Shown: positions 39,556-57,087 of the stretch, piece by piece | Layout of the letters: each line of letters starts with the position of its first letter | How positions within the stretch are numbered: position 1 is the stretch's first letter | Source: an uncultured bacterium | GTDB lineage: Bacteria; Bacillota_I; Bacilli_A; RFN20; CAG-826 | Assembly (NCBI GenBank): GCA_949290395.1 | Contig: CASERQ010000004.1 | Coordinates: 149,598 to 213,597 of the forward strand | Direction: 5' to 3' | Length of the DNA: 64,000 nucleotides | Program-made: the position numbers and the translations under genes | Notes under the pieces: model-generated | Told to the model about the DNA's origin: nothing | What the model saw: the letters and a program-made list of their open reading frames with translations, nothing else | The model's database searches: none

Positions 39556-40599
39556 ATGTACAATTTTTACGATTATAGTCTTCCAAAACTCGAAGAGTTG
39601 ATTGTTTCGTTTAACGAAAAAAAGTATCGTGCAACTCAACTTTTTAAATGGGTTTACAAAAGAAAGGTTTTTGATTTTGATGCAATGAGCGATGTCTCAA
39701 AAACTTTTAGAGAGTTTTTAAAAGAAAACTTTGTTTTTATTAAACCTAAAATTTATAAAAAACAAGTTAGTAAAGATGGTACTATAAAACTTCTTTTAGA
39801 ACTTGAAGATGGCGCTAAAGTTGAAACGGTTTTAATGCGTTATAACTATGGAAATGTAGCTTGCGTTTCTAGTGAAGTTGGCTGCAATATGGGCTGCGCA
39901 TTCTGCGCAAGTGGCATTTTAAAAAAGCAAAGAGAACTTAAAGTAAGTGAAATTTTAGGTCAAGTTTTAGTGCTTAATGACCTTCTTTTTGAAGAAGGAA
40001 ATGACGAAAGAATAACTCACGTTGTTGTAATGGGAACCGGCGAGCCATTTGACAATTATGATAACGTCATGGACTTTATTAGAATTTTAAATAATCCTCA
40101 TGGACTTGAAATTGGTGCAAGACATATAACGGTTTCAACTTGTGGCATTGTTCCTAAAATTTATGATTATGCTAACGAAGGGCTTCAAATTAATTTAGCT
40201 ATCTCTTTACATGCACCAAATGATGAAATTAGAAATAAAATAATGGCCATTAGCAGGGTTTATCCTCTTGATGAACTTATGAAAGCCGTTAAATATTATG
40301 AAAAAACCGCTGGTAGAAGAGTAACTTTTGAATATATTCTTTTAAAAGGTATTAATGATTCTAAAGAAAACGCTAAAGAACTAGCTAAATTGATTAAAGG
40401 CACATTGGCCTACGTCAACTTAATACCTTATAATGAAGTTAGTGAAATGAAATATCGTCGAAGTGATGAAAAAACAGTTCATGAATATTTAGATACTCTT
40501 ATGAAACTTGGGGTTACAGCAACTATTAGAAAAGAATTTGGTAGTGACATTGATGCTGCTTGTGGTCAATTAAGAGCGAAAGAAGAAAGACGTGATTAG
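39556..40599 (+). CDS. rlmN: Dual-specificity 23S rRNA/tRNA adenine-C2 methyltransferase
   Basis: 347 residues, radical SAM. The iron-sulfur cluster motif is CNMGCAFC (CxxxCxxC, near residue 113). 'MGTGEPFDNYDNV' is the SAM-contact loop. The two methylation cysteines fit Cys in 'TVSTCGIVP' or the C-terminal 'DIDAACGQL' as in the family. It methylates A2503 of 23S rRNA and A37 of some tRNAs. TAA-TTA-ATG junction with the preceding gene, and eight bases overlapping the phosphatase gene. Confidence 0.95.
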   Translation: MYNFYDYSLPKLEELIVSFNEKKYRATQLFKWVYKRKVFDFDAMSDVSKTFREFLKENFVFIKPKIYKKQVSKDGTIKLLLELEDGAKVETVLMRYNYGNVACVSSEVGCNMGCAFCASGILKKQRELKVSEILGQVLVLNDLLFEEGNDERITHVVVMGTGEPFDNYDNVMDFIRILNNPHGLEIGARHITVSTCGIVPKIYDYANEGLQINLAISLHAPNDEIRNKIMAISRVYPLDELMKAVKYYEKTAGRRVTFEYILLKGINDSKENAKELAKLIKGTLAYVNLIPYNEVSEMKYRRSDEKTVHEYLDTLMKLGVTATIRKEFGSDIDAACGQLRAKEERRD

Positions 40600-41335
40600 G
40601 GGAAATTATTGTTATAGAACTGATATAGGTAAAGTCAGGAGTACAAATGAAGACGAGACTAGAATTGTAATAAACTCTAGTGGAAACGTTCTTTTAATTG
40701 TGGCCGATGGAATGGGAGGACACAATAAAGGAGACTACGCTTCTTTTGAAACTGTAAGAATAATTAGTGAAGCTTTTAAAGATAAAAAAGGTTTTTTAAC
40801 TGCTCATTCAGCAGCAAACTGGTTAAAAAATATCTCAAAATTAGCAAATTCCACAATTTATAATTTACAGGATCAAGACGTCATTTATAAAGGCATGGGA
40901 ACAACCCTTTCTATGGCTCTCATTTTTAAGAACAAATTAATCACTTTAAATTGTGGTGATTCGAGAATCTACTCAAAAAAGAGTCATAAGTTAGAGCAAT
41001 TAAGTGAAGATCAAACTTACGTCAATTTCCTTGTTAAATCAGGCCAAATATCACAAGAAGAAGCCCTTATTCATCCTGAAAGACATGTTTTGACAAATGC
41101 TGTTGGAATTTTCCCTTCTTTAAGTGCTGATATAAAAATTATTGATTACAATAACGAAACGTTACTTTTATGCACTGATGGACTTTATAACAACATCCGT
41201 GATAAAGATATTTTAAATATTTTAGAAATGAATATTGCAACAAGTGAAAAAGTTCAATCGTTAATTTCACTTGCTAATTTTAATGGTGGAACTGATAACA
41301 TAAGCGTAGCTCTTTGGGAGACTTTAGATGATTAA
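40592..41335 (+). CDS. PP2C-type Ser/Thr protein phosphatase (PrpC/Stp-like)
   Basis: 247 residues from GTG 40592, overlapping the rlmN end. Metal-binding Asp residues occur in 'STNEDE' (motif 1), 'VADGMGGHNKGD' (motif 2), 'LCTDGL' (motif 8) and 'GGTDNISVAL' (motif 11). Together with the next gene it forms the usual phosphatase-kinase pair acting on Ser/Thr-phosphorylated proteins in the cytosol, overlapping it by eight bases. Confidence 0.92.
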   Translation: MIRGNYCYRTDIGKVRSTNEDETRIVINSSGNVLLIVADGMGGHNKGDYASFETVRIISEAFKDKKGFLTAHSAANWLKNISKLANSTIYNLQDQDVIYKGMGTTLSMALIFKNKLITLNCGDSRIYSKKSHKLEQLSEDQTYVNFLVKSGQISQEEALIHPERHVLTNAVGIFPSLSADIKIIDYNNETLLLCTDGLYNNIRDKDILNILEMNIATSEKVQSLISLANFNGGTDNISVALWETLDD

Positions 41336-42212
41336 AGTTAATGAGGTCATCGGACAAAGATATAAGATAATTAGTGAACTTGGTGAAGGTGGGATGGCTA
41401 ATGTTTTTGAAGCGCGTGATGTTATCTTTAAAAGAGAAGTTGCTTTAAAAATTATTAAACTTGATAATGCTAAAAAAATTGATAACTTAATTCGTTTTCA
41501 AAACGAAGCCCGCTTTTCAGCAGCTTTTAGCCATAAAAACATTGTTAAAATTTATGATTATGGCGAATATAACAATCTTCCTTATATTGTTAACGAATTT
41601 GTTAAAGGCCAAACTTTAAGAGATATTCTTGATTATAAAAGATGTTTTTCTTTAAATGAAAGTTGCTCAATTATGCTTCAACTTTGCGATGCTGTTAGTG
41701 AAGTACATTCTAAAAAAATTATTCATCGTGATATTAAAACTCATAACATTTATTACACAAATGATGGCGAAATTAAGCTTGGTGATTTTGGAATTTCGAT
41801 CTTGCTTAATAGTGATTTAAACGTTAACGAAAATAAACGTATTATGGGAACTGCTCAATATCTTGCTCCTGAACTTGTTTATGGAGATAAACCAAGTTTT
41901 CAAAGCGATATTTATGCAATGGGAATCACCTTTTTTGAACTTTTAACAGGACGCGTTCCTTTTGATGGAAAAAATCCTCATGATATTGCAATTATGCAAG
42001 TTGAAAAAGAAATCCCATCTCCTTTAAAAATTAATCCTAACCTTCCTAAAGAAGTGGAATATATAATTTTCAAAGCTACTAAAAAAGATTTAAATGAAAG
42101 ATATAAAAGTTGTGAAGAAATGAAAAAAGACATTTATTCAATTTATAAAAATAAAAAACTTGTAAGAAAAAATACTGGATTTTTTTCACGAATTTTTGGG
42201 TTCACAAAGTAA
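41328..42212 (+). CDS. Soluble Hanks-type Ser/Thr kinase, no PASTA domains
   Basis: 294 residues holding a complete kinase domain: glycine loop GEGGMANVF, Lys in 'VALKII', catalytic loop 'IIHRDIKTHNI', DFG in 'LGDFGIS', activation segment 'GTAQYLAPE', 'SDIYAMGITFFELL'. The protein stops about 20 residues after the kinase C-lobe with a basic tail. PrkC/PknB in related operons continue with a membrane span and external PASTA repeats that sense muropeptides; both are absent here. It is therefore cytosolic, and sensing must differ. Confidence 0.9.
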   Translation: MIKVNEVIGQRYKIISELGEGGMANVFEARDVIFKREVALKIIKLDNAKKIDNLIRFQNEARFSAAFSHKNIVKIYDYGEYNNLPYIVNEFVKGQTLRDILDYKRCFSLNESCSIMLQLCDAVSEVHSKKIIHRDIKTHNIYYTNDGEIKLGDFGISILLNSDLNVNENKRIMGTAQYLAPELVYGDKPSFQSDIYAMGITFFELLTGRVPFDGKNPHDIAIMQVEKEIPSPLKINPNLPKEVEYIIFKATKKDLNERYKSCEEMKKDIYSIYKNKKLVRKNTGFFSRIFGFTK

Positions 42213-42215
42213 ATT

Positions 42216-42872
42216 ATGAAACACGTTGATATTTCAATTTCAATTTTAAATGCTAATTTTTTATATCTAAATGAAGAGATTTTAAAGGCAGAGAATCTTG
42301 GAATAAGATATCTTCATTTTGATGTAATGGACGGACATTTTGTTCCAAACATTTCTTTTGGAGCACCAGTTTTAGAATCTATTAAAGGAAAATTTAATCT
42401 TATAAATGATGTTCATTTGATGATTAGTGATCCTAAAAAATATGTTGATGATTTTATTAAAGCTGGCGCCAATATTATCACGTTTCACTATGAAGCAATG
42501 AAAAATGAAGAAGATATCTTTTCTTTAATTAAATATATAAAAGAAAAAGGAGTTAAGGCAGGAATTTCAATAAAACCAAAAACTAATGTTAAAGTTTTAC
42601 TACCTTTTTTAGATCTTCTTGATTTAATTCTTGTAATGTCAGTTGAACCTGGCTTTGGCGGACAAAGTTTTATGGATTCATCTTTAGATAAGATTGAATT
42701 TTTATCTAATTATAAAAAAGAAAATGGTTTAGAATATTTAATAGAAGTAGATGGAGGGATAAACAATTTAACCTTTAAAAAGTGTGCTCTTAAAGGTGTT
42801 GATATTTGTGTTATTGGGAGCTACTTGTATAAAAGCGAAAACATGAAAGAAAGTTTTGAGGCGTTAAGTTAA
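42216..42872 (+). CDS. rpe: Ribulose-phosphate 3-epimerase
   Basis: 218 residues, TIM barrel. Signature segments 'HFDVMDGHFVPNISFG' and 'VHLMI', 'MSVEPGFGGQSF' and 'EVDGGIN' carry the metal and phosphate ligands. It interconverts ribulose-5-phosphate and xylulose-5-phosphate in the pentose phosphate pathway. In many Firmicutes rsgA lies between the kinase and rpe; here it is missing. TAA-ATT-ATG junction with the kinase. Confidence 0.95.
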   Translation: MKHVDISISILNANFLYLNEEILKAENLGIRYLHFDVMDGHFVPNISFGAPVLESIKGKFNLINDVHLMISDPKKYVDDFIKAGANIITFHYEAMKNEEDIFSLIKYIKEKGVKAGISIKPKTNVKVLLPFLDLLDLILVMSVEPGFGGQSFMDSSLDKIEFLSNYKKENGLEYLIEVDGGINNLTFKKCALKGVDICVIGSYLYKSENMKESFEALS

Positions 42873-42873
42873 T

Positions 42874-43560
42874 ATGAGTGAATTACAATATGCATTTTTA
42901 CTTGGAGCATTTTTAGGAATTATCCTTCTTGTAGGTGTCTATCTTTTTGAAGGAAGAAGCTTCTCTAAGACTGGCAATGACAAATATAACATATTTAGAT
43001 ATTTTCCTTTTGAAATAAATTGTTTTAAAAGAAACAACAAAGCAAGTTATATTTATCCAGTTGTTCAACTTATTGGAACACTATTAATTTCTTCTTGTTT
43101 TCTCTTTTTTGCTATTGAAACATGGCATAACGGAGGTGCCTTAATAATCTCTTTTATCCTCTTTGCGATCTCATTTTTAACAGCATTAACCTATAACGCT
43201 TTAACCTTTATAAAGCTCTCAAATTATCAATTACATCTTATTTTTGCGGTAATTTTTGTTTGTTTAAATCTTTTAGAACTTGTTTTATCTTTGTTCTTTT
43301 TAACAAATGCAAATTATTATTTTGTTAATCCAACTCATCAAGGAACACAAATTGCAGTCTTTATTATTATCTTTATAATTTTAATTTTTGAAGCAGTTTT
43401 GATGTTCAATCCATCCTATAAAAGATGGAACAAAATGGTAAAAGTTGATGCTGAAATTTTTAATAGGCCTAGATTTAATTATCTAGCAATGCTAGAGTGG
43501 GGCAACTTAATTATTTATGTTTTAAATCTAATTCCTCTCGGAGTGATGATGTATTTCTAA
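42874..43560 (+). CDS. Polytopic membrane protein of unknown function
   Basis: 228 residues with about six hydrophobic spans (approximately 6-24, 62-82, 90-113, 122-145, 157-178, 208-226). No motif recognised. It is the last gene of the run, one base after rpe, and ends at a strong bidirectional terminator. Confidence 0.7.
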   Translation: MSELQYAFLLGAFLGIILLVGVYLFEGRSFSKTGNDKYNIFRYFPFEINCFKRNNKASYIYPVVQLIGTLLISSCFLFFAIETWHNGGALIISFILFAISFLTALTYNALTFIKLSNYQLHLIFAVIFVCLNLLELVLSLFFLTNANYYFVNPTHQGTQIAVFIIIFIILIFEAVLMFNPSYKRWNKMVKVDAEIFNRPRFNYLAMLEWGNLIIYVLNLIPLGVMMYF

Positions 43561-43593
43561 ATTGTTGGTATTTTTGTGTCAAAAACGCAAAAT

Positions 43594-43624
43594 AAAAAAA
43601 GTCGCCTAACCCGGCGACTTTTTT
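43594..43624. terminator. Bidirectional terminator (membrane protein / rpmB)
   Basis: AAAAAAAGTCGCC (43594-43606) and GGCGACTTTTTT (43613-43624) around TAACCC. A-run and T-run flank the GC stem, so it works in both directions. Confidence 0.9.
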
Positions 43625-43626
43625 AA

Positions 43627-43821
43627 TTAATTTTCTTTAAGTGATTTGTTAAGAGTACGATAAGCTCTAGCGCTCATTCTTACTTTACAGATTTGACCAT
43701 CGATTTCAACTCTGTATGTATGGAGATTTACATCCCATCTTCTTCTTGTGGCTCTTAAACTGTGTGAACGATTGTTTCCGCTCATAGGTTTTTTACCAGT
43801 AACAGGACAAATTCTTGACAT
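43627..43821 (-). CDS. rpmB: 50S ribosomal protein L28
   Basis: 64 residues starting at ATG 43821, which follows GAAAGGAGG; an upstream ATG (43839) lies within the ribosome site region and gives an atypical N-terminus. 'CPVTGKKPMSGNNRSHS' and 'RRWDVNLHTYRV' are the family phrases. The paired Cys of zinc-binding L28 versions are absent, so it is the zinc-free form. Confidence 0.95.
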   Translation of the reverse strand: MSRICPVTGKKPMSGNNRSHSLRATRRRWDVNLHTYRVEIDGQICKVRMSARAYRTLNKSLKEN

Positions 43822-43945
43822 TTCGTTTCCTCCTTTCAAATCAGCCTTAAGATTTTAGCATAGTTATATTTTTAATGTAAAGTAAAAAATGTAACTAAAT
43901 CCCTAGGTTCAAAAATTTTATCGACAACAGTAGACCTCTGTCAAT

Positions 43946-44506
43946 TTATTTTTTTAAAGCTTTCCCGTCTTTAAAAGCATTTCCGACTTTTTCTTTTACA
44001 AGTAAATAAGCAAAATTTACTGAATCATAAGAAATTGCTTCAAGTTTTTCAGGATCGATTTTTCCTTCAGTTAAGATCGATTCATCAACCGAGACGTTTA
44101 CAATTTCACCAGTTACAATTTCAGTTTCTGGATCGATAGAAATTAATTTACATTCAAGAGTAAGTGGAAGCTCTTCAATGATAGGAGCATCAACAAATTC
44201 TGATTTCTTTGTGTGGAAATTACAAACTTCTAATTTGTTGCTTACATCATTTCCGCTAACAATTCCTAAATAGTCGCACTCTTTAACATATTTTTTAGTT
44301 GCAGAAGATACTGTGAATGCTTTTTTAAGAAGAATGTTCTTGGTTGTTTTGTGGTCGCTTGCTAAAGCAATTGAAATCTTATTGTAATCAGTTATCCCAC
44401 CCCATGCGGCATTCATGCAATCAGGGACGCCTTTTTCATCATAAGTAGCAATCATTAAAACAGGCTGAGGAAAAATCCAAGTTTTAGCTCCAAAATTTTT
44501 ACGCAT
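43946..44506 (-). CDS. Flavin reductase-like / FMN-binding split-barrel protein
   Basis: 186 residues. 'PQPVLMIATYDEKGVPDCMNAAWGG' is the N-terminal strand and FMN loop of the flavin reductase-like family; 'ITGEIVNVSVDE'-type strands near the end complete the barrel. Members bind FMN and use NAD(P)H, but specificity cannot be read. Sixteen bases after the minus-strand membrane protein gene, so the two probably form one unit. Confidence 0.82.
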   Translation of the reverse strand: MRKNFGAKTWIFPQPVLMIATYDEKGVPDCMNAAWGGITDYNKISIALASDHKTTKNILLKKAFTVSSATKKYVKECDYLGIVSGNDVSNKLEVCNFHTKKSEFVDAPIIEELPLTLECKLISIDPETEIVTGEIVNVSVDESILTEGKIDPEKLEAISYDSVNFAYLLVKEKVGNAFKDGKALKK

Positions 44507-44522
44507 AATTTTTTAAACTCCT

Positions 44523-45005
44523 TTACATTTTTACGCCCGGAAAACGACTTTTAAAACTTTCCTTGTCCATAAGGTTAGTCGCGTTTTTCTTCATAGCATT
44601 TAATATTTTTTCTTCCTTGTCTAAAACAAGAAAAAAAGAAGCACCTTTATTATCATAAAAAAGCAAGATTGAATGTTTTTCAGTGTATTCTTCATCAATA
44701 AATAAAACGTTTTTAAAATCAAATTTTATCTCTTTAGTCCATTTATGATGAACGATGCCATCTTTTAAAATTACATAGTAGTTTTGCTTAGTCATAATGT
44801 AATAAGAAATGCCACAAATAACAGCCCAAGCAACAATAGTTATAACGTCTTGAATTATGCAAGAAGTGACTTGATCTTCAGGTAGATAAGCCCATCCAAA
44901 ACGTGATGAAAAAATAGCATAAATTAAAAGCAATAAAACTAGACAATATATCGAAAAAAGTTTTAAAATCTTGCTCTTTTTTGGAAAAATACGTTGATAA
45001 TTCAT
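44523..45005 (-). CDS. Small membrane protein with a PH-like C-terminal domain
   Basis: 160 residues. Two membrane spans (about 14-35 and 50-70), then about 85 cytosolic residues forming alternating strands ('YYVILKDGIVHHKW', 'FDFKNVLFIDEEY') and a final helix, the layout of bacterial PH-like or YcxB-type proteins. Function unknown. Its start is just over 50 bases from the divergent jetA start, with back-to-back -10 boxes in the gap. Confidence 0.55.
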   Translation of the reverse strand: MNYQRIFPKKSKILKLFSIYCLVLLLLIYAIFSSRFGWAYLPEDQVTSCIIQDVITIVAWAVICGISYYIMTKQNYYVILKDGIVHHKWTKEIKFDFKNVLFIDEEYTEKHSILLFYDNKGASFFLVLDKEEKILNAMKKNATNLMDKESFKSRFPGVKM

Positions 45006-45039
45006 AAAAATTTTGTAGGTTTATTATATCAATAAATGA

Positions 45040-45045
45040 TATAAT
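45040..45045 (+). promoter_or_regulatory. -10 box of the jetABC-glgCDA unit
   Basis: TATAAT ends 18 bases before ATG 45064. The short leader has no ribosome-binding site. A second TATAAT in the opposite direction (45023-45028, minus strand) serves the divergent membrane protein. Confidence 0.5.
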
Positions 45046-45063
45046 TTAATAGCATTAAAGAAA

Positions 45064-46482
45064 ATGAATTTATTTGATATTATTCCGCAAAACTATTTTG
45101 GTCTTTTCGGGGGGAAAAATAAAAATATTTATATTGAAAGTCTCCTTATTCTTTTTGAGATGGTTGAAAAAGATGAGAGCATAATTTCAAAAAATGATTA
45201 CATAAAAACCCTAAAAGACAAAGCTGATGATCTTGCTAATTTTACTTATGAAGACGAAGAGTTTGATAGTACAGAAGATGATGCTCTCCTTTTAAATACA
45301 GTCTCAAGTAAAGCAAGTTTTATTTGCCGTCGTTTAGAAGAAACTGGCTGGATTGATGTTGCTATGAATCCAGACACTTTTGAAGAAACAATCGTTTTAC
45401 CTCAATATACGATTATCATTTTAAAAGCTTTTAAGGACATCATCTCTGATGAAGAATCTCCTTATTTATCACTTGTTCATTCAACTTATAGTGAACTTAA
45501 ACTTGAAGATGAAGAACGCGATGAACTCATGTATGCAACTCTTTTAAGAGCTTTTGACAATACTAAAAAACTTAAGGTTGAACTTTTAACACTTACTAAC
45601 TCAATTAGAATTTTCCAAAATAAATTATCAAAATTATTCGATACTAATCGTGTTTTACACGATTATTTTGATGTTTATAAAAGAAAAATCAGCGATAGAT
45701 ATTATCACCCACTCAAGACTTTTGATAGCGTTGCTCGTTTTAAAAGACCTATTATTAGAATTCTTGATGGCTGGTTAAATGACCGCGAAATTAGAGATAA
45801 GTTAGTTTTTCAAGCAACCACAAGTTCAGCAACTAACGATAAAAAAGAAATTGAAAAGGATATTATTGAAAAAATTAACTATATTACTGATACTTACGAA
45901 AAACTTAATATTTTAATTAGTTCAATCGATAAAGAAAATAATGCCTACACTAAAAGTAGTACAAATAAGATTCTTTATCTTAATAATAATGACCGTACAA
46001 TTAAGGGACATCTTGAAAATATTCTTAAAACTTATGCTAAAAACGTTAATGATACAAGAACGCTTTCAAAGATTCTTTCAAAGATGCAAGATGCAACCTA
46101 TTTTTATGAACAAGGCTACATTGATCCTAACTCTGTAACTTTACCAATTTTAAGAAGATTCAAACTTGAAGGAACTCCAATGGAACTTGTTACTTTCGAT
46201 GAAGCAACAGGATTCATGATGGATAGCTTCCTTGAAGAAACAAAAGCAATCTTCACCGACGATAAAGTTTATGGCTTTATGGAGCAAGCTTTTGCGGACA
46301 AATCAAGAATTCATATCAGTGAAATTCCTCTTGTAAATTTTGACGCATTTATTTGTTTAATTCTTGCTGTTATTAAAAAAGATGATGATAACTGTTTCTA
46401 TTACGTTGAAGAGATCGATAGAGGAAAAGTTCATACTTGCGGTTATGTAGTCCCTAATTTTGATTTTATTAAGAAGGAGTGA
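45064..46482 (+). CDS. jetA: JetA / MksF-type kleisin subunit of a Wadjet-like SMC complex
   Basis: 472 residues, all helical and acidic, matching JetA in size and opening ('FDIIPQNYFGLFGGKNKNIY' is a family-like start). JetA is the kleisin-like subunit that bridges the JetC heads. The N-terminal winged-helix-like part is followed by long helices (about 150-330) and a C-terminal winged helix. It is the first of three genes in JetA-JetB-JetC order, overlapping jetB at the nucleotide level only by a few bases of ribosome site. No -35 is evident. Confidence 0.82.
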   Translation: MNLFDIIPQNYFGLFGGKNKNIYIESLLILFEMVEKDESIISKNDYIKTLKDKADDLANFTYEDEEFDSTEDDALLLNTVSSKASFICRRLEETGWIDVAMNPDTFEETIVLPQYTIIILKAFKDIISDEESPYLSLVHSTYSELKLEDEERDELMYATLLRAFDNTKKLKVELLTLTNSIRIFQNKLSKLFDTNRVLHDYFDVYKRKISDRYYHPLKTFDSVARFKRPIIRILDGWLNDREIRDKLVFQATTSSATNDKKEIEKDIIEKINYITDTYEKLNILISSIDKENNAYTKSSTNKILYLNNNDRTIKGHLENILKTYAKNVNDTRTLSKILSKMQDATYFYEQGYIDPNSVTLPILRRFKLEGTPMELVTFDEATGFMMDSFLEETKAIFTDDKVYGFMEQAFADKSRIHISEIPLVNFDAFICLILAVIKKDDDNCFYYVEEIDRGKVHTCGYVVPNFDFIKKE

Positions 46483-46487
46483 GGTTT

Positions 46488-47138
46488 ATGTTTAATGAAG
46501 ATTTTGTTAAATTACCACCAAGTGAACAAAATGAATTTGCTTCAATAGTAAATACACTTTTATTAAAAGGATTTGTTGTCCGTGATATTTTTGATCCAAA
46601 AGAAAAATTAATGAGAACAAATCCTGTTTATAGATACATCGAACGTCACTTTGACTTAATTCAAGATTATTTAAAATTTAGTGGATGGAATATTGAACGC
46701 GATGCTATTTTAGGGGTTATCGCTTTATCAAATTATTACACTGAAAATAGAATTAGACTTGATAGAGAAACTTCTCTTATTCTTTTTGCTTTAAGATTAA
46801 TTTATGAAAATGAAAAGAATGAATCTAATTCTACTAACCAAGCAATTTATATTACAACTCCTGGTTTAATTAAAACGATGGTGGACGATGGAATTGTTAT
46901 GCCTGGTAAGAGATTATATGGAAGAGGAATTGCTAAATCTTTAAGATTTTTAAATAACCACAACATAATTTCTAAAGTTAGCGGGAGCTATGATGAAGGA
47001 AATGTTTCTTTTTATATTCTTCCTAGCATAGTCTATGCTCTCGATAACGATAAGATTGTTGCAATGAGCAATGCTCTTGATGAACTTAATAAACAAAAAG
47101 ATAACAAGGGAGGCTTATTAAATGAAACTTCTAACTAG
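46488..47138 (+). CDS. jetB: JetB / MksE-type (DUF4194) subunit
   Basis: 216 residues from ATG 46488, eight bases after the AAGGAG site; an upstream GTG lies inside that site. 'LLLKGFVVRDIFDPKEKLM' and 'YRYIERHFDLIQDYLKFSGW' followed by tandem winged helices match the DUF4194/MksE (KITE-like) partner of the kleisin. 'LDRETSLILFALRLIYENE' is typical of the family. It overlaps jetC by 17 bases, implying coupled translation and stoichiometric assembly. Confidence 0.85.
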   Translation: MFNEDFVKLPPSEQNEFASIVNTLLLKGFVVRDIFDPKEKLMRTNPVYRYIERHFDLIQDYLKFSGWNIERDAILGVIALSNYYTENRIRLDRETSLILFALRLIYENEKNESNSTNQAIYITTPGLIKTMVDDGIVMPGKRLYGRGIAKSLRFLNNHNIISKVSGSYDEGNVSFYILPSIVYALDNDKIVAMSNALDELNKQKDNKGGLLNETSN

Positions 47139-50100
47139 AGTAAAAATTATTAATTGGCACTACTTTTGGGATGAATTAATTGAAATTAAGCCTATTGTTT
47201 TCTTAACTGGTGTTAATGGTAGTGGTAAATCAACTTTAATCGATGCTTTCCAAGTTGTTCTTTTAGGTGATACAACTGGAAGATATTTTAATAAAGCTGC
47301 TCTTGAAAAGAGTGCTCGTACTTTAAAGGGCTATCTTAGAGGTGAACTTGGTGACACTATTGATGGTGGATTTAAATATTTAAGAAATGGACGTTTTACC
47401 TCTTACATTGCTTTAGAGTTTTTCGATGATTTAAATAATATTCCTTTTGTAATGGGTATTGTTTTTGATTCTTATGAAGATGGAAGTGAAGAACACCATT
47501 TCTTCTATCTAGAAAGCACGCTTCCTATCAATAATTTTGTTAAAGATAGAGTTCCAATGGATTATAAAACTCTCCTTGCTTTCTTTAACGAAAATTATCC
47601 TGACCATTACCAATTCTTTGAAAGTAATCGTCAATACCAAGATTTCTTAAAAAGAAAATTTGGTGGACTGAAAGATAAATATTTCTCTCTTTTAAAGAAA
47701 GCAACATCTTTTACACCAATCACCGACATTACAACATTTATTACAGATTATGTTTGTGATCCTCAAGCTAATATTGAACTTGATGCCCTTCAAGATAACA
47801 TTCTTCAATATAAAAAACTTGAAGTTGAAGCCTCAAATATTGAAAAAAGAGTCCAAAGACTTGAAGAAATTTCTAAGACTTATGAATCTTATAAAAGACA
47901 AAAAGAAAATTTTGTTATTGCTCAATATATTATTGAAAAATGTCAACTTGAACAAAGTTATAACAAACTCAGAAGTTTAAATAATTTAATTGAAAGAAAT
48001 CAAAGAAGAATTGCTGAAATCGATGAAGAATTAAAAGATTTTGCAGCAAATCTTGATGAACTTGAAGCTAAAAAGACAAAACTTATCTCAGATAGAGCAA
48101 GTAATGATTCAATTCGTATTGCTCAAAATTTAAGAGATGAAAAAAGAGATTGTGAAGATAAAATTAAAGCCATAAATAGCAATATTTTTGCTGTTAGAAA
48201 TTCTCTTACTCAATATTTAGATAACTTTGATAGTTGCGCAAAAGCTTTAAGCAAAGACCTTGAAACAATTGATGTTAACGCTCTTGGTGAAGATAAAGTA
48301 GAAGAAATTAATGAAATTAAAACTTCAAGTAAATCTGTAATTGGGGCTTGTGCAAGTTTTAGAGATACTTTCTTAAATGATTTAACAAAACTTACCAAGA
48401 TGGATCTTTCAGATTTAAGAGATACTTTCTTAATCTTTAAGAACCAAGTTTCTAATTTAGCAGTAAGTTTAGCAAGAACTATTCAAACTCTTGAGAAAGG
48501 AATTAGAGAAATTAAAGCTCAAGAGCAGGATATCAAACAAGGTACAAAAACCTACGATTCTCGTTTAACTTTAATCAAAAATTCCTTAGAAGATAGACTT
48601 GAAGAAGAGTTTGGAAAACATATTGAAGTATCAATTTATGCTGATTTAATCGATATTGATGATTTAAGCTGGGCAAATGCAATTGAAGGACTTTTAATTA
48701 ACCAAAAGTTTAATCTTTTCGTTGCTCCAAAATATTATGATGATGCTTATAGAATCTTAAAAGATTTATTAAATACATATTCATATTACGCAACTGCTTT
48801 AGTAGATGAAGAAAAAATCATCGCTAGAGAACCAGAATGTATGCCAGGATCTCTTGCTGAAGAGATTAATACAACACACGAAGGAGCAAGAGCTTATACT
48901 AACTTCCTTTTAGGCCGTGTTCATAAATCAAAGAACCCTCAAGAAGCTAGAGAAAGTGGTAATGGTATTACCAAAGAATGCGATTTATATCGTAATTTTG
49001 CGATGTCTCGACTTAATCCAAGAACTTATCAAACAAGTTATATTGGACGCAAAATGGATGATCGTTTCTTAAATGAGAAAGCTAAACAATTAGCAGTTAA
49101 TAACGAAAATTTAAAAGTTTATAAAGATATTAAAGGTTTAATTGATGAAGCTAATAGACTTGAACTTATTACAACAGGTGAAATCGAAAATATTTTCGTT
49201 TTGCTTAAGAGAATTAGCGACCTTCCAGGTCTTGAAAATACTCTTAAATATATCGAAGAAGAACTTAAAAACAACGATTCCCCACTTGCTCAATCTTTAG
49301 ATTCTAGAATTGCTGATGTTGATGCTGATATTAAATCAATCAACGAAAGCAAAGAAAAAGTTGTCTTAGAAAAAGGTAACTTAATTAAAGATATTGAAAA
49401 TATTAAAACTGAAAGAATTATTTCTGAGCAAAAAATTATTGAAGAAAAAGAAAATTCAATTAATTCTCACTATGATCCATTCCTTGTTAGTGACCAAGCT
49501 CTTCCAATTTATGAAAGAGAAATCGCTGATGGAAAATCAGTTATGGAAATTTTCCAAGAATTTAATGTTGAATTCTCTCGTTTACAATACATCGTTAATA
49601 ACATCAATAACCAAGTTATTCGTTTTAGAAGAGATTATTGTCAAGACTATCACCTTAGTTATGATGTTGAAGCAGAAAGTAATGACGTTTTTGAAAATGA
49701 ACTTAAAGAATTTAGAGACGTTAAACTTCCTGAATATAAAGAAAAGATTGAAGATTCTTACAATAAAGCCACAAAACAATTTAAAGATGACTTTATCTTT
49801 AAATTAAGAGGAGCTATTGAAGATGTCGAAGATCAAATTGAAAACTTAAATACAGCCTTAAAACAATCTTCTTTCGGACGTGATCTATATCGTTTCACTG
49901 TCAAACCATCAACTGTTTATAGAAGATATTACGATATGTTAAAAGATGATTTAGTCATTAATGGTGGTAAAGACGATAGCGAATTTGTTAACAAATACAA
50001 AGACGTCATGGAAGATCTCTTTAGACAAATTGTCGATGTTGGCGACAATTCTAAAAATTCCCAACTCCTTGAAAATATTTCTAAATTTACAGACTATAGA

Positions 50101-50487
50101 AGTTATCTCGATTTTGACTTAATAGTGTATAATAAAGATACTGGTGATGAACAAAGACTCTCAAAAATGATTAAGAAGAAGAGTGGTGGCGAAACTCAAA
50201 CACCATTTTACATCGCTGTTCTCGCATCATTTGCACAACTCTACCATGTTAATGATGAAGGAGAAATGGGAAACACCTTGCGTCTTATAATTTTTGATGA
50301 AGCATTCTCCAAAATGGATAAAGGAAGAATGACTGAAGCTATTAAACTTTTAAGAAAATTCTCCTTACAAGTTATCCTCAGTGCTCCATCTGATAAGATA
50401 CCTGATATTTCGCCACTTGTTGATGAAACCTTAATCGTCTTACACGATAAGAACAAGAGCTGCGTTCGTCTTTTTGAAAAAGAATAA
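47122..50487 (+). CDS. jetC: JetC / MksB-type SMC ATPase
   Basis: 1121 residues. Walker A GVNGSGKST (30-38) within an N-terminal head half; long coiled coils (about 255-470 and 680-960) surround a hinge-like globular part (about 490-650); the C-terminal head half has signature 'KKKSGGETQTPF' and Walker B 'RLIIFDEAFSKMD', then 'VILSAPSDKI'. This is the SbcC/MukB-like ATPase of Wadjet and MksBEF. In Wadjet such complexes extrude DNA loops and JetD then cleaves small circles. All ATPase residues are intact. No jetD follows; glgC starts 20 bases later. Confidence 0.9.
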   Translation: MKLLTRVKIINWHYFWDELIEIKPIVFLTGVNGSGKSTLIDAFQVVLLGDTTGRYFNKAALEKSARTLKGYLRGELGDTIDGGFKYLRNGRFTSYIALEFFDDLNNIPFVMGIVFDSYEDGSEEHHFFYLESTLPINNFVKDRVPMDYKTLLAFFNENYPDHYQFFESNRQYQDFLKRKFGGLKDKYFSLLKKATSFTPITDITTFITDYVCDPQANIELDALQDNILQYKKLEVEASNIEKRVQRLEEISKTYESYKRQKENFVIAQYIIEKCQLEQSYNKLRSLNNLIERNQRRIAEIDEELKDFAANLDELEAKKTKLISDRASNDSIRIAQNLRDEKRDCEDKIKAINSNIFAVRNSLTQYLDNFDSCAKALSKDLETIDVNALGEDKVEEINEIKTSSKSVIGACASFRDTFLNDLTKLTKMDLSDLRDTFLIFKNQVSNLAVSLARTIQTLEKGIREIKAQEQDIKQGTKTYDSRLTLIKNSLEDRLEEEFGKHIEVSIYADLIDIDDLSWANAIEGLLINQKFNLFVAPKYYDDAYRILKDLLNTYSYYATALVDEEKIIAREPECMPGSLAEEINTTHEGARAYTNFLLGRVHKSKNPQEARESGNGITKECDLYRNFAMSRLNPRTYQTSYIGRKMDDRFLNEKAKQLAVNNENLKVYKDIKGLIDEANRLELITTGEIENIFVLLKRISDLPGLENTLKYIEEELKNNDSPLAQSLDSRIADVDADIKSINESKEKVVLEKGNLIKDIENIKTERIISEQKIIEEKENSINSHYDPFLVSDQALPIYEREIADGKSVMEIFQEFNVEFSRLQYIVNNINNQVIRFRRDYCQDYHLSYDVEAESNDVFENELKEFRDVKLPEYKEKIEDSYNKATKQFKDDFIFKLRGAIEDVEDQIENLNTALKQSSFGRDLYRFTVKPSTVYRRYYDMLKDDLVINGGKDDSEFVNKYKDVMEDLFRQIVDVGDNSKNSQLLENISKFTDYRSYLDFDLIVYNKDTGDEQRLSKMIKKKSGGETQTPFYIAVLASFAQLYHVNDEGEMGNTLRLIIFDEAFSKMDKGRMTEAIKLLRKFSLQVILSAPSDKIPDISPLVDETLIVLHDKNKSCVRLFEKE

Positions 50488-50507
50488 ATAAAAGGAGGAA
50501 GACGCTA

Positions 50508-51623
50508 ATGGCGCAAAAGGTTGTAGCGATGATACTTGCGGGCGGAAAAGGTACCCGTTTAAAAGCGCTCACTAGAAAGATTGCAAAACCTGCAGTCCAT
50601 TTTGGTGGCAAATATCGTATCATCGATTTTTCGTTGTCCAATGTTGCAAATAGTGACATTACAGTATGTGGTGTTTTAACGCAATATGAGTCGGCAGTTT
50701 TAACAAATTATGTTGGAAATGGTTCAACATGGGGTTTTGATGGAGTTAATGGTAAGTGTCAATCACTCGCACCTCATCAAACTGAAGAAGGTGCAAACTG
50801 GTATAATGGCACCGCTGATGCAATTTATCAAAACTTAGACTTCTTAGACGACGAAGATCCTGATTATGTCTTAATTTTAAGTGGCGATCACATCTATAAA
50901 ACAACTTATAATGATATGATTGATCTCCATATTCAAAGTGGAGCAGTTTGTACAATTTCTGTTATTGAAGTTCCATGGGAAGAAGCTTCTAGATTTGGTA
51001 TTTTAGAGGTTAATAGTGATGATGAAATCACAAAATTCGTTGAAAAACCTAAAAAACCACAATCTAATCTTGCAAGTATGGGAATTTATGTTTTCTCATA
51101 TAAAGAACTTAGAAAAGCTCTTATTGAAGATGCAAAAGATCCTGATTCAAATCACGATTTTGGTAGCAATATTATCCCAACTCTTCTTGCTCAAAATAAA
51201 AAGCTCATGGCTTATAGATTTAGTGGATATTGGAGAGATGTTGGAACACTTGATTCGCTCCATGCAGCAAACGTTGAGTTGCTTCCTTCAATGGGCAAAG
51301 AAGATGTTATTCATTTTTCTGAATTCCCAACAGTTTTCAGTGAAGATACCCACTCAATGCCACAATTTGTTGGTAAAAACGCATCAATTGATGATTGCTT
51401 AGTTAATCAAGGTGCAATTATTTTAGGTCACATTTCTCATTCTGTTATCTCTAATGAAGTTTATGTTGGAGAAGATGCTGAAGTTGTTGATTCCTATATT
51501 ATGCCAGGCGCAAAGATAGGAAAAGGCGCTAAGGTTTATAAGGCAATCGTAGGACCAAATGAAGTCATTAAAGATGGCGAAGTCATTAACCAAGATATGG
51601 CTGAAGTTGTTCTTGAGGCATAA
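50508..51623 (+). CDS. glgC: Glucose-1-phosphate adenylyltransferase, catalytic subunit
   Basis: 371 residues. The nucleotide loop is 'LAGGKGTRLKALT'; 'KPAVHFGGKYRIIDF' and 'SGDHIYK' carry the substrate-binding Lys and catalytic Asp; the C-terminal left-handed beta helix follows. It makes ADP-glucose from ATP and glucose-1-phosphate, the first committed step of glycogen synthesis. An AAAGGAGG site lies before the ATG, 20 bases after jetC with no terminator, so it is probably co-transcribed with jetABC. Confidence 0.95.
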   Translation: MAQKVVAMILAGGKGTRLKALTRKIAKPAVHFGGKYRIIDFSLSNVANSDITVCGVLTQYESAVLTNYVGNGSTWGFDGVNGKCQSLAPHQTEEGANWYNGTADAIYQNLDFLDDEDPDYVLILSGDHIYKTTYNDMIDLHIQSGAVCTISVIEVPWEEASRFGILEVNSDDEITKFVEKPKKPQSNLASMGIYVFSYKELRKALIEDAKDPDSNHDFGSNIIPTLLAQNKKLMAYRFSGYWRDVGTLDSLHAANVELLPSMGKEDVIHFSEFPTVFSEDTHSMPQFVGKNASIDDCLVNQGAIILGHISHSVISNEVYVGEDAEVVDSYIMPGAKIGKGAKVYKAIVGPNEVIKDGEVINQDMAEVVLEA

Positions 51624-51634
51624 GGAGATATGTT

Positions 51635-52750
51635 ATGAATAATGTTTTAGCACTTGTTGATTTATACGAAAATTCAGATTTAGGTTTATTAACTCGTGAT
51701 AGACCTCTTGCAAGTACAACTTTCTTAGCTAGATATGCTTTTATTGATTTTGCATTATCTAATTTATCAAATAGTGGCATCGATAATATTTGTGTTCTTG
51801 CAAAAAATCACTCAAACAGCATTTATAAACATATTGGAAATACAAATACATATTTAGCAAATCCGAAAACTGGTTATCTTTCAATTCTTATTAACGAAGA
51901 AGGTATTATTAACCCAGTTTTCAATACTGATATTAATAACATTAAAGAAAACGACTTTGTTTTATATGATGACAAAGTTAAATATGTTGTAATAACAAAT
52001 GCTTCATTTATTATGAAGCTTGACTATAAAAAAGTAGTTGAAGATCATATTAAAAGTGGTAAAAACGTCTCGCTTGTTTATAAAAAAGTTGAAGATGCAC
52101 ATGAATTTGCAAGTTGTACAAAACTTGTAGTTGATAACTTGAATTGTGTTCAAAAATTATATACTGATAACAAATCATCCAAAGCGAATATCCTTTTAGA
52201 TACTATCGTTATTGATAAATCACTTCTTTCTGATTTACTTTCAAAAGCTAGCCAAATCTCAGCTATGATTAGTGTTGAAGCAATGGTTGGCTATCTTGTG
52301 AATTATGTTACAAAAATTAACGCAATTGAATTTAAAGGATATGTCCGTAAATTTGATTCACTTGAACATTACTTTAAGTATTCCTTAGAATTTTTAAATA
52401 ATCCTGAACTTTTAAGAGAATTTTTCCAAGATCAAGATTGGGTTTATTACACAACAACCCATAACTCTCATCCAGTTTTATATGGACCAAATGCTAAAGT
52501 TACTAATTCGCTTGTAGCAAATGGAACAAGTATTGAAGGTACAGTTAAAAATTCTATTATTTCTCGTGACGTTACAATTGAAGAAGGCGCAATTGTTGAA
52601 AATTCAATTATTTTTACTCACACCACAATCAAAAGAGGTGTTCACCTTAAAAATGTAATTGCTGATAAACGTACAATTTTTGAAAATAAAAAAGACGTTT
52701 ATGGTACAGAAAGTCATCCACTTTATTTTCCAAGAGGAGTTATCGTTTAA
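51635..52750 (+). CDS. glgD: ADP-glucose pyrophosphorylase regulatory subunit GlgD
   Basis: 371 residues, homologous to GlgC over its length but lacking the GGxGTRL nucleotide loop (here 'LLTRDRPLASTTFLARYAFIDF'). It keeps the C-terminal beta helix. GlgD forms a heteromeric GlgC-GlgD enzyme in Firmicutes and is a regulatory, largely non-catalytic subunit. AAGGAG ribosome site; 11 bases after glgC. Confidence 0.93.
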   Translation: MNNVLALVDLYENSDLGLLTRDRPLASTTFLARYAFIDFALSNLSNSGIDNICVLAKNHSNSIYKHIGNTNTYLANPKTGYLSILINEEGIINPVFNTDINNIKENDFVLYDDKVKYVVITNASFIMKLDYKKVVEDHIKSGKNVSLVYKKVEDAHEFASCTKLVVDNLNCVQKLYTDNKSSKANILLDTIVIDKSLLSDLLSKASQISAMISVEAMVGYLVNYVTKINAIEFKGYVRKFDSLEHYFKYSLEFLNNPELLREFFQDQDWVYYTTTHNSHPVLYGPNAKVTNSLVANGTSIEGTVKNSIISRDVTIEEGAIVENSIIFTHTTIKRGVHLKNVIADKRTIFENKKDVYGTESHPLYFPRGVIV

Positions 52751-52753
52751 TTT

Positions 52754-54205
52754 ATGAATATTTTAATGGCAAGTAGTGAAGCTTTACCATTTAGCAAAAC
52801 TGGTGGTTTAGCTGATGTTGTCTATGCTCTTTCAAAAGAGATAGAACGCAAAGAAAAAGATGTAACAATGAGCATTGTTTCACCATTTTATGGCTCAATA
52901 AATAAAGCAAAATATAAATTTAAATCACTTTATTCTTTTAATGTTAAGATGCAATGGAGAAATATTCCTACTGAAATTATGCACGTAACTTATGAAGGAA
53001 TTGATTATTATCTTGTTAAAAATGATGGATATTTTGCTCGAAATGGCGGATTATATGGCTATTTTGATGATGGAGAAAGATTTGCTTATTTCTCTTTAGC
53101 AGTTTTAGAACTTATTAAACGCTTGCCATATGAAATTGATGTTGTCCATTGTCATGATTGGCAAACTGGAATGATTCCTTGTCTTTTAAAAGAAAGATGG
53201 AGAGATGATCCAATTTTAGGAAAAGTAAAATCAATGATCACTATCCACAATCCTTTATTTAAGGGATATTTTGGAGTTGGTTCTTTAGGTGATTTTTATG
53301 AACTTAATGATTCGCTTTTCTACTCTGGAAAAATTAGACTTGATGGACAAGTTTCAACTTTAAAAGCAGGGATTTATTACGCTGATAAAATCACAACAGT
53401 TTCACCAACCCATGCTTATGAGCTTAAAACTCCAGATGGATCAAAAGGTTTATGGTATGACCTCATTTTAAGACAAAATGATTTTTCAGGCGTTTTAAAT
53501 GGAATGGACTATAAAGAATTTAATCCTCAAACTGATAAATTAATTTATAAAAACTATACTCAAAAAACTTTATCTGAAGGGAAAAGAGAAAATAAAAAGG
53601 CTTTTTGCGAGGAATTTGAGTTAGAACAAGGGAAACCTTTATTTAGCGTTGTATCACGTTTAAGTGATCAAAAAGGTTTAGAATTAATTAATGCAATGGC
53701 TGATTTTGTTGTTACAAGTGGAGGCAATTTCGCTATTGTTGGAAGTGGAGAAAAGTATGCTGAAGATTATTACAATGCTTTACATATGAAATATCTCCAT
53801 AATGTTAGAGTTTATATTGGCTACAACAATGAAATGGCTCATAAATGTTACGCAGCTAGCGATTTCTTCATTATGCCAAGTGCTTTTGAACCATGTGGTC
53901 TTGGGCAAATGATTGCTCAAAGATATGGAACTTTACCAATTGTTAGAAGAACCGGAGGCTTAAAAGATAGTGTTATTCCATATAATTATGGAATTAATAA
54001 CTATAAAGATGCCGATGGATTTGGTTTTGATGGATATAACGCATCTGATGCAATTAAAGCAACTGCTAATGCTCTTATGGTTTATGATTCTCGACCAAAA
54101 GAATTTGAAAGAATGAGACTTAATGCCTTTAAGGTTGATCATTCTTGGACAAAACCTTCTAAAGAATATCTAACAATTTATAGAAGTTTAGCTAATAGAA
54201 AATAA
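52754..54205 (+). CDS. glgA: Glycogen synthase (ADP-glucose)
   Basis: 483 residues, GT5 family. N-terminal 'SSEALPFSKTGGLADVV' holds the KTGGL ADP-glucose motif, and the C-terminal lobe has 'PSAFEPCGLGQMIAQRYG' with the catalytic Glu and 'RRTGGLKDSV'. It extends alpha-1,4-glucan chains. Starts three bases after glgD (TAA-TTT-ATG). glgB and glgP are not in the window. A terminator follows. Confidence 0.95.
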   Translation: MNILMASSEALPFSKTGGLADVVYALSKEIERKEKDVTMSIVSPFYGSINKAKYKFKSLYSFNVKMQWRNIPTEIMHVTYEGIDYYLVKNDGYFARNGGLYGYFDDGERFAYFSLAVLELIKRLPYEIDVVHCHDWQTGMIPCLLKERWRDDPILGKVKSMITIHNPLFKGYFGVGSLGDFYELNDSLFYSGKIRLDGQVSTLKAGIYYADKITTVSPTHAYELKTPDGSKGLWYDLILRQNDFSGVLNGMDYKEFNPQTDKLIYKNYTQKTLSEGKRENKKAFCEEFELEQGKPLFSVVSRLSDQKGLELINAMADFVVTSGGNFAIVGSGEKYAEDYYNALHMKYLHNVRVYIGYNNEMAHKCYAASDFFIMPSAFEPCGLGQMIAQRYGTLPIVRRTGGLKDSVIPYNYGINNYKDADGFGFDGYNASDAIKATANALMVYDSRPKEFERMRLNAFKVDHSWTKPSKEYLTIYRSLANRK

Positions 54206-54212
54206 ATTAAAG

Positions 54213-54238
54213 AGGCTCCTCTAGGGAGCCTGCTTTTT
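54213..54238 (+). terminator. Terminator of the glg operon
   Basis: AGGCTCCT (54213-54220), loop CTA, GGGAGCCT (54224-54231), then GCTTTTT. Confidence 0.9.
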
Positions 54239-54262
54239 ATAAAATTTCCTTCTTTATCTTAC

Positions 54263-54291
54263 TTGAAACTAGCTCTTTTTATCTTTATAAT
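54263..54291 (+). promoter_or_regulatory. Promoter of leuS
   Basis: TTGAAA (54263-54268), 17 bases, TATAAT (54286-54291): the closest match to a consensus promoter in the window. Transcription would start about 54298. Confidence 0.8.
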
Positions 54292-54297
54292 TTTTTT

Positions 54298-54479
54298 GAT
54301 GATTAATTAAGAACAAAATCTTCTTAGAGAGTTACTGGTTGGTGAAAAGTAATAGGGTTTAACTTAAGTCTCACATCAGATTTATCTTATTTATTAAATT
54401 AAGTGCATACTTCATAGAAGTATGAACTAAGGTGGTACCGCGTAAATTACGTCCTTAGATTATGTCTAAGGATTTTTTT
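54298..54479 (+). promoter_or_regulatory. T-box riboswitch leader of leuS
   Basis: The conserved T-box motif AAGGTGGTACCGCG is at 54429-54442 and is followed by an intrinsic terminator: TCCTTAGA (54452-54459), loop TTATG, TCTAAGGA (54465-54472), then seven T. Stem I begins near 54325 and contains the GGTTGGTG element (54351-54358). A CTT or overlapping TTA Leu codon at 54363-54366 is the likely specifier. Uncharged tRNA-Leu should pair with the specifier and the T-box bulge and allow readthrough into leuS. Confidence 0.92.
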
Positions 54480-54494
54480 ATAGGAGGAAAAAGC

Positions 54495-56897
54495 ATGTAT
54501 AACCATAAAGAAGTTGAAAAGAAATGGGCTGAAATTTGGGACAAAAACAAAGAATACAAGTGTGATACAAGTGATTTTTCAAAACCAAAATACTATGTCT
54601 TAGATATGTTCCCTTATCCAAGTGGACAAGGCTTACATGTTGGTCATCCAGAAGGCTACACAGCAACTGACATTGTTGCCCGTATGAAAAGAATGCAAGG
54701 TTTCAATGTCTTACACCCAATAGGATGGGATGCTTTTGGTCTTCCTGCTGAGCAATATGCAATGAAGATGAACGAACATCCTGAAAAATTCACCTTAAAA
54801 AACATTGATAACTTCCGTAGACAAATCAAAATGCTTGGTTTTTCTTATGACTATGATAGAGAAATCATGACTTGTGATCCAAAATACTACAAATGGACTC
54901 AATGGATCTTCAAAAAAATGTTTGATAACAACCTTGCTTACGTTGATTATAAACCTGTTAACTGGTGTGAAGAACTTGGGACAGTTTTAGCAAATGAAGA
55001 GGTTATTGATGGAAAAAGTGAAAGAGGCGGGTATCCTGTCGTTAGAAAACCAATGAGACAATGGATGCTTAAAATTACTTCTTACGCAGATAGACTTGAT
55101 GAAGATTTAAAAGGTCTTGATTGGCCACAATCTACTATTGAACTTCAACATAACTGGATTGGAAAATCTCTCGGAACAGAAGTTATTTTTAAGATAGACG
55201 GAAGTGATAAAACTTTCAAAGTTTTCACAACAAGAGCTGATACACTTTTTGGTTGTACATATTGCTGCCTTGCTCCTGAGCATCCTTTAGTTAAAGAAAT
55301 TGTAACTGACAAGATGAGAAGTGAAGTTGAAAAATATATTGAAACTGTTTCTCATAAATCTGATTTAGATAGAACAGAGTTAAATAAGGATAAGAGTGGC
55401 GTTTTTGTCGGAAGATATGCAATTAATCCAATTAACAACAAAAAAGTTCCTATTTTTATTGCAGATTATGTTTTAGCAAGTTATGGAAGTGGGGCAGTTA
55501 TGGCTGTTCCAGCTCATGATGAAAGAGATTATGCTTTTGCTAAAAAATATAGCCTTGAAATGATTCAAGTTCTTGAAGGTGATATTTCTGAAAATGCTAT
55601 GACAAAAGACGCAAAACATATTAATAGCGACTTTATTAATGGCAAAAATATCGAAGAAGGCAAAAAACTTGTTACTGAAAAATTAATTGAATTAAATGCT
55701 GGTAATTTTAAAGTTAATTATAAATTGAGAGATTGGTTATTCTCACGTCAAAGATATTGGGGCGAGCCAATTCCAATTATTAATTTTGAAGATGGTTCAA
55801 TGAAAAGTTTAAATGAAGATGATTTACCACTTGTTTTACCAGAATTAAAAGAATATAAACCAAGCGGAACTGGCGAATCACCATTAGTCCACGCAACAGA
55901 TTGGTTAAATGTTGAAATAGATGGTAAAAAAGCGATAAGAGAGACAAATACTATGCCACAATGGGCCGGAAGTTGCTGGTACTATCTTAGATATATTGAT
56001 CCAAAAAATGATAATTTTATCGGAGATAAAAAATTATTAGATCACTGGTTACCAGTTGATTTATATATTGGTGGACAAGAACATGCTGTTTTACACTTAC
56101 TTTATGCTCGTTTTTGGCATAAATTCTTATATGATCAAGGAGTTGTTTCGTCTAAAGAACCATTCAAGAAATTATTCCATCAAGGTATGATTCTCGGTGA
56201 AAATGGTGAAAAAATGTCTAAATCAAGAGGGAACGTCATTAATCCTGATGAAATCGTTGATAAATATGGCGCAGATACTTTAAGACTTTATGAAATGTTT
56301 ATGGGACCACTTGAAGCTTCACTCCCTTGGTCAAGTAAAGGACTTGAAGGCGCAAGAAGATTTATAGACAGAGTCTACAGAATGTTTGAAGAAGATTCTT
56401 TTAGAGCAAAGTTCTCTGATAAGAATGATGGAAGCCTTGATTATATCTATAACTTCACAGTTAAAAAAGTCACTGAAGATTTTGAAAAACTTCAATTTAA
56501 TACAGCAATCTCACAAATGATGATTTTTGTAAATGAACTTTATAAAGCTAGCTCAATTTATAAGGTCTATCTTGAAAACTTCATTAAGATGTTTGATTGT
56601 ATTTGTCCATTTATTGGTGAAGAAATTTGGCATAAATATTTTGGTCACGATGACATGATTACATATACTTCTTGGCCAACTTATGATGAAAGCAAAATTA
56701 ATTTAGCGACAGTTAAAATCGCTGTTCAAGTTAATGGTAAATTGAGAGATACAATTGAAGTTAATAAAGACGAAGACGATGAAAAAGTTAAAGAAATTGC
56801 TCTTACTTCAGAGAGAGTTCAAAACTTTACAAAAGATAAAACAATTGTTAAAGTCATCGTTGTTAAGAACAAAATCGTCTCAGTTGTTGTAAAATAG
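54495..56897 (+). CDS. leuS: Leucyl-tRNA synthetase
   Basis: 800 residues from ATG 54495, preceded by AGGAGG. An in-frame ATG at 54462 lies within the T-box terminator stem and is rejected. Class I motifs: HVGHPEGY (HIGH) near residue 42 and EKMSKS near residue 568. The editing CP1 domain (about 215-405) includes 'TTRADTLFG' and 'AVPAHDERD', and the C-terminal anticodon and extension domains are complete. Ends before a strong terminator. Confidence 0.98.
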
Positions 56898-56952
56898 CTG
56901 AGATTTGCAGGCTTTTTCATTAATTAAGTAGTATTTAAAATTTTAAATTTTA

Positions 56953-57000
56953 GCAAAATCACGTTTATTTTCTTTCAAAAATTCCGTGATTTTGCTTTTT
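56953..57000 (+). terminator. Terminator of leuS
   Basis: GCAAAATCACG (56953-56963) and CGTGATTTTGC (56985-56995) form a perfect 11-bp stem around a 21-base loop, then five or more T. Confidence 0.85.
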
Positions 57001-57087
57001 TATTTGATTTGCTATGGATACATAAATATGGTTAAATATAAGCGTTGTTTTCACGGTACTTATTAAAGACTGTAGAAAGGATTTTAT

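Follow-up and report, generated by a model that had tools for sequence, protein, structure and literature searches.

A nuclease-free JetABC operon as a probable stand-in for Smc-ScpAB in an order of Bacilli

The window analyzed here, a stretch of 64,000 nucleotides from the genome of an uncultured bacterium (GTDB lineage Bacillota_I; Bacilli_A; RFN20; CAG-826; GenBank assembly GCA_949290395.1, contig CASERQ010000004.1), carries at positions 45064-50487 an operon of three genes, jetA, jetB and jetC, which encode the kleisin, KITE and SMC ATPase subunits of a type I Wadjet/MksBEF complex. All three are found on the forward strand, and neighbours overlap or sit a few bases apart. The first, jetA (mksF-like; 45064..46482), codes for a kleisin of 472 amino acids that matched Pfam PF18982 (E=1.2e-89) and the PADLOC model JetA1 (404 bits); jetB (mksE-like; 46488..47138) codes for a KITE subunit of 216 amino acids with a DUF4194 match (JetB1, 217 bits); and jetC (mksB-like; 47122..50487) codes for an SMC ATPase of 1121 amino acids (JetC1, 1108 bits). 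Counted from a GTG at 46479, the JetB open reading frame would comprise 219 amino acids; translation probably begins with the ATG at 46488, since an AAGGAG box precedes it and the JetB proteins of relatives begin with MFxE in the alignment. A preliminary description of this DNA had recognized three intact subunits of a Wadjet-like complex, and the Pfam and PADLOC matches, together with complete ATPase motifs, confirm at the sequence level both this assignment and the reported coordinates, with only the JetB start shifting by nine bases.

The Walker A motif of JetC, GVNGSGKST (47209..47235, forward strand, as are the following; residues 30-38), its ABC signature SGGETQ (50182..50199; residues 1021-1026), and its Walker B and D-loop region, LIIFDEAFSKMD (50284..50319; residues 1055-1066), are all present. 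Among 16 JetC proteins of the order the signature was invariant, as were G30, N32, G35, K36 and T38 of Walker A and D1059, E1060 and D1066 of the Walker B/D-loop region. A sequence search of the PDB with JetC matched only solved JetC chains (9qxt, 8as8; E=1e-16 to 1e-14), and the 20.5 bits scored against the N-terminal Pfam model of MukB fell under the cut-off of 23. The PDB sequence search with JetA gave no match; the AlphaFold model of JetA (pTM 0.51) had as its best structural matches the Wadjet-II JetABC chain 9qe0_E and MukF, a weaker result than that of the JetB model, which matched JetB (8dk1_E, 8as8_C) and MukE. In the closer relative pairs, the ratio of nonsynonymous to synonymous substitution rates (dN/dS) was ~0.03-0.12 for jetA, jetB and jetC, a range shared by glgC and leuS, and this purifying selection indicates that the operon is functional. 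With a kleisin, a KITE subunit, an SMC protein with intact ATPase motifs and no MksG, the set has the gene content of MksBEF.

The JetA, JetB and JetC of a type I Wadjet system thus stand in one operon, and its JetD nuclease (TOPRIM, PF09983) is missing. The preliminary description had noted the absence of JetD/MksG on both sides and had proposed a search of the whole genome; no JetD adjoins the operon, and a search of the entire assembly (1.37 Mb, 96% complete) for JetD_C (PF09983) gave no match, even with the threshold relaxed to E<=1. Nor was JetD found with PF09983 in 127 of 144 relatives. The JetD searches used PF09983 and a local hidden Markov model (HMM) built from the order's own JetD proteins; here and below, genome searches scored just the top candidates from an initial pass, and most genomes compared are incomplete metagenome assemblies. 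In the 17 relatives that carry JetD, it mostly belongs to a second, patchily distributed and complete jetABCD, whose JetC is ~27% identical to the window type; the exceptions are G116, in which a single JetC was found, and G025 and G091, which are fragmentary or weak cases. We examined 67 loci in the order that carry the orphan operon (as we call the JetD-less jetABC); by the local HMM and inspection, none has JetD beside it. Since the same HMM places JetD immediately downstream of JetC in almost every relative outside the order (jetABCD carriers there include Caldicoprobacter, Desulfosporosinus, Alicyclobacillus and Treponema), these comparisons indicate that JetD absence is a property of the lineage and not a sequencing gap.

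Smc-ScpAB was not found in the order either. SMC was searched with SMC_prok_B (TIGR02168) and ScpA with PF02616, models that gave clear matches in controls and in class-level outgroups. SMC scored above the cut-off in only two of the 144 relatives, the same two that contain ScpA, and both are outside the order; among the 141 genomes of the order Smc-ScpAB was not found, one SMC fragment (G127) aside. That fragment lies on a contig of 8.2 kb, is accompanied by no ScpA, and was rejected as a genuine SMC of the order, being probably contamination. The genome-wide search for Smc-ScpAB that the preliminary description had also suggested therefore returned none for the window's genome or its order.

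JetABC is present in all eight families of the order, labelled f1 to f8 with f1 as the window's family, although f7 is represented by JetA only, in one 69%-complete genome. JetC or JetA, without JetD in the operon, was found in 54 of the 55 sampled genomes of f2-f8, and the single genome with neither is 65% complete. Of the 35 genera of f1, 11 keep the orphan operon; its losses in this family were multiple, with at least three changes and with a single loss rejected by the approximately unbiased (AU) test (p-AU 9e-6). In one f1 genus without the window-type orphan operon, g25, a different and distant JetC was seen with no JetD beside it (L121:7990-11295 and L123:7893-13271), preceded in L123 by a JetA-like gene.

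We further examined a class-wide sample of 296 genomes for SMC and Jet proteins, with ScpA checked on 55 of them. Smc-ScpAB was absent from f1-f8, f10, f12, f16, f19, f21, f23 and f26-f28 in this sample, and present in f9, f11, f13-f15, f17, f18, f20, f22, f24, f25 and f29 (the single f13 genome checked for ScpA gave no match, although its SMC is present). JetD-less JetABC occurs in part of f1, in f2-f8, f10, f16 and f26-f28, and also in f14; f16 we take to be the Acholeplasmataceae, including A. laidlawii PG-8A and A. palmae J233. In a tree of seven ribosomal proteins the SMC-less families formed two separate clades, the window's order and an Acholeplasma-like group, and families that have SMC branched between the two. 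A topology uniting all SMC-less genomes was rejected (p-AU 5.9e-6), so the loss of Smc-ScpAB was not one shared event. LeuS had been tried as the organism tree, and was replaced by the ribosomal proteins after it proved scrambled, with families split; the strong conflict between the LeuS tree (L227-L285) and the ribosomal-protein tree suggests transfer of the leucyl-tRNA synthetase gene.

Because the order is without Smc-ScpAB and passes the operon on vertically with no JetD, the best reading is that orphan JetABC probably works as a chromosomal condensin in place of the missing complex. It is also the economical one, since the proteins are homologous to a loop extruder and neither JetD nor Smc-ScpAB is there. 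A condensin role like that of MksBEF was one of two options that the preliminary description had offered for a nuclease-free set, and the order-wide distribution now favours it. The Wadjet type I (MksBEF) complex of this lineage would have lost its nuclease; JetABC would load on the chromosome and extrude DNA loops in vivo using ATP, and this extrusion would compact the chromosome and help to separate sister chromosomes with no cutting, and plasmids would no longer be cleaved. In line with this, the second SMC-less clade of the class also carries JetD-less JetABC, and jetABC loci lie in housekeeping neighbourhoods and not in defence islands. With less assurance, we lean towards a scenario in which Smc-ScpAB was lost twice in the class Bacilli where nuclease-stripped JetABC, a plasmid-defence motor turned condensin, is the only SMC condensin, and in which some descendants lost that complex too, leaving them with no known condensin. 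In the open-licence literature, our searches turned up no account of JetABC taking over from SMC in these orders.

Several observations weigh against a condensin role. In f1, 24 of the 35 genera have neither Smc-ScpAB nor the orphan operon (a few of them carry another Jet-type locus), and families f12, f19, f21 and f23 also have neither. Because so many lineages carry neither complex, no condensin is strictly needed at these genome sizes; a condensin is dispensable in this group, and we do not call JetABC essential. Family f14 has JetD-less JetABC while keeping SMC. In the JetC tree, JetD-less JetCs fall in several clades among jetABCD, and a single clade within the order was rejected (p-AU 0.016); since they are not one clade, the tree indicates that JetD changed more than once, being lost repeatedly or sometimes regained. 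Finally, when orphan and JetD-bearing sets were contrasted, all three subunits were merely less conserved in the orphan set, and no subunit had a clear JetD-interface signature in that contrast. As a separate observation, some nearly complete genomes with neither complex (e.g. G042, G043, G144, G151, G159 and G166) possibly represent condensin-less bacteria.

In Wadjet systems, JetABC uses ATP to extrude DNA loops, recognizes small circular DNA and passes it to JetD for cutting (PMC10586767). The orphan set resembles type I (JetABCD; MksBEFG) in having homologous JetA, JetB and JetC in the same gene order, with JetA1, JetB1 and JetC1 as best PADLOC matches; unlike it, the set has no JetD/MksG and hence misses the defining cleavage step, and it has spread vertically like housekeeping genes, whereas Wadjet is patchy. 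Some Pseudomonas Mks sets are also without MksG. The MksBEF of Pseudomonas aeruginosa, likewise a MukBEF-like complex, is reported to contribute to chromosome segregation there (Petrushenko 2011; PMC7485682). P. aeruginosa also has Smc-ScpAB, however, unlike the window's order. MukBEF is a complex of the same superfamily that replaced Smc-ScpAB in enterobacteria (PMC10586767), as JetABC would have done in an independent lineage within Bacilli. Unlike MukBEF, orphan JetABC still has close jetABCD relatives, so that the step from defence is traceable. MukB is also longer, at ~1486 amino acids against the 1121 of JetC. A 2023 review speculated that MukBEF and MksBEF descend from Wadjet-like defence and called this origin unresolved (PMC10586767). 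With Smc-ScpAB itself, orphan JetABC would share the presumed job of chromosome compaction and segregation, although it belongs to a different SMC family.

If orphan JetABC is indeed a condensin, it adds independent replacements of Smc-ScpAB and shows how an SMC nuclease system gets disarmed. Apparent intermediates are at hand: jetABCD relatives, orphan jetABC together with SMC (f14), orphan jetABC without SMC (the window's order and the presumed Acholeplasmataceae), and lineages in which both were lost. Culturable organisms (Acholeplasma) and natural loss lineages would be open to study. Annotation tools would then be labelling housekeeping genes "Wadjet defence".

The complex might instead still serve defence, sensing and looping small circular DNA and silencing it without cutting, or recruiting an unlinked nuclease. 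In Wadjet it is JetABC that senses shape (PMC10586767), the frequent loss of the operon in f1 resembles that of a dispensable system, and a few genomes of the order have JetD elsewhere. We nevertheless consider this unlikely: where JetD exists among the relatives it mostly sits in the second, complete jetABCD, an operon inherited vertically and present almost throughout seven families does not resemble a patchy defence system, and the link with SMC loss would be left unexplained. A replacement effector beside jetC, as in the defence core imagined in the preliminary description, did not emerge either, as the genes around it have unrelated housekeeping roles and vary from one family to the next (glg, PTS enzyme I, PepC, MalK, RsmE, SepF, UvrD-like), with no shared nuclease and no conserved effector. 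Somewhat less likely again is an accessory condensin acting at a special step such as DNA repair, replication restart or terminus handling, while another factor mainly organizes the chromosome. Many relatives do manage with neither SMC nor the orphan operon, and Corynebacterium glutamicum is reported to tolerate deletion of smc (PMC11898615); against this stand the strong purifying selection on jetABC, its near-universal presence in f2-f8, and a PF13558 search that found no further MukB-like protein in the jetABC carriers sampled from the order.

A further alternative, functional coupling of JetABC to glycogen synthesis through a shared operon, arises from the genes downstream. The jetC-glgC gap (50488..50507, forward strand) has the 20 bases that were initially reported, with an AGGAGG ribosome-binding site at 50493-50498, no terminator and no jetD. 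It is followed by glgC, glgD and glgA (50508..54205, forward), glycogen genes that are not part of the complex, and by a strong terminator-like hairpin (54213..54231, forward; 8 pairs, 5 of them G-C, and a T tail), the likely transcript end. Across 20 genomes of the genus the gap varies between 11 and 95 bases, and every genome of the genus in which the locus is assembled has the same gene order. The co-transcription proposed in the preliminary description is therefore probable within the window's genus, where jetABC-glgCDA appear to form one transcript; the connection it drew between DNA organization and carbon storage did not hold up. In other genera and families a membrane-type gene of ~300 amino acids intervenes, glg is missing, or jetABC has another location, and jetABC is remote from glg in nine families (f2, f4, f6, f8, f10, f16, f26, f27 and f28), an outcome that the preliminary description had itself named as a refutation. 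Conversely, glgCDA remain at the same place without jetABC in 18 sampled genera, and jetABC is kept without glg in L067, L069, L072, L089, L090 and L092. We thus rejected the coupling as very improbable; from these gene orders, the link is one of chromosomal neighbourhood.

At the loss sites in f1 the flanks are mostly unchanged, with rlmN, PP2C, kinase, rpe and membrane-protein genes followed directly by glgC-glgD-glgA-leuS, and only jetABC therefore seems to have departed. The membrane protein is the divergent one noted at the outset upstream of jetA (44523..45005, reverse strand; 160 amino acids, two predicted membrane helices, no Pfam match), and its gene flanks the site in jetABC-bearing and jetABC-lacking genomes alike.

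Just after jetC, 27 loci in other genera of f1 and in f3 and f5 encode a protein of 240-420 amino acids (mostly ~310) that has two membrane helices at its N terminus and matches DUF3137 weakly (e.g. L067:6916-7866, L070:6963-7877, L083:6384-7316 and L093:6738-7763). Its gene accompanies jetABC even where glg has disappeared, and none of the 24 f1 loci examined that are without this jetABC contains it; the protein is a possible partner. In f27, the JetD-less jetC is immediately followed by the gene for SepF, a cell division protein (L220:11332-11676). CGG and AGG codon reassignment has been reported for Onthovivens and family CAG-288 (PMC13092985). In the window, 16 genes at 39556-58621 contain no CGG and six AGG in 6056 codons; several of these six are near misannotated starts, and both codons look unused here.
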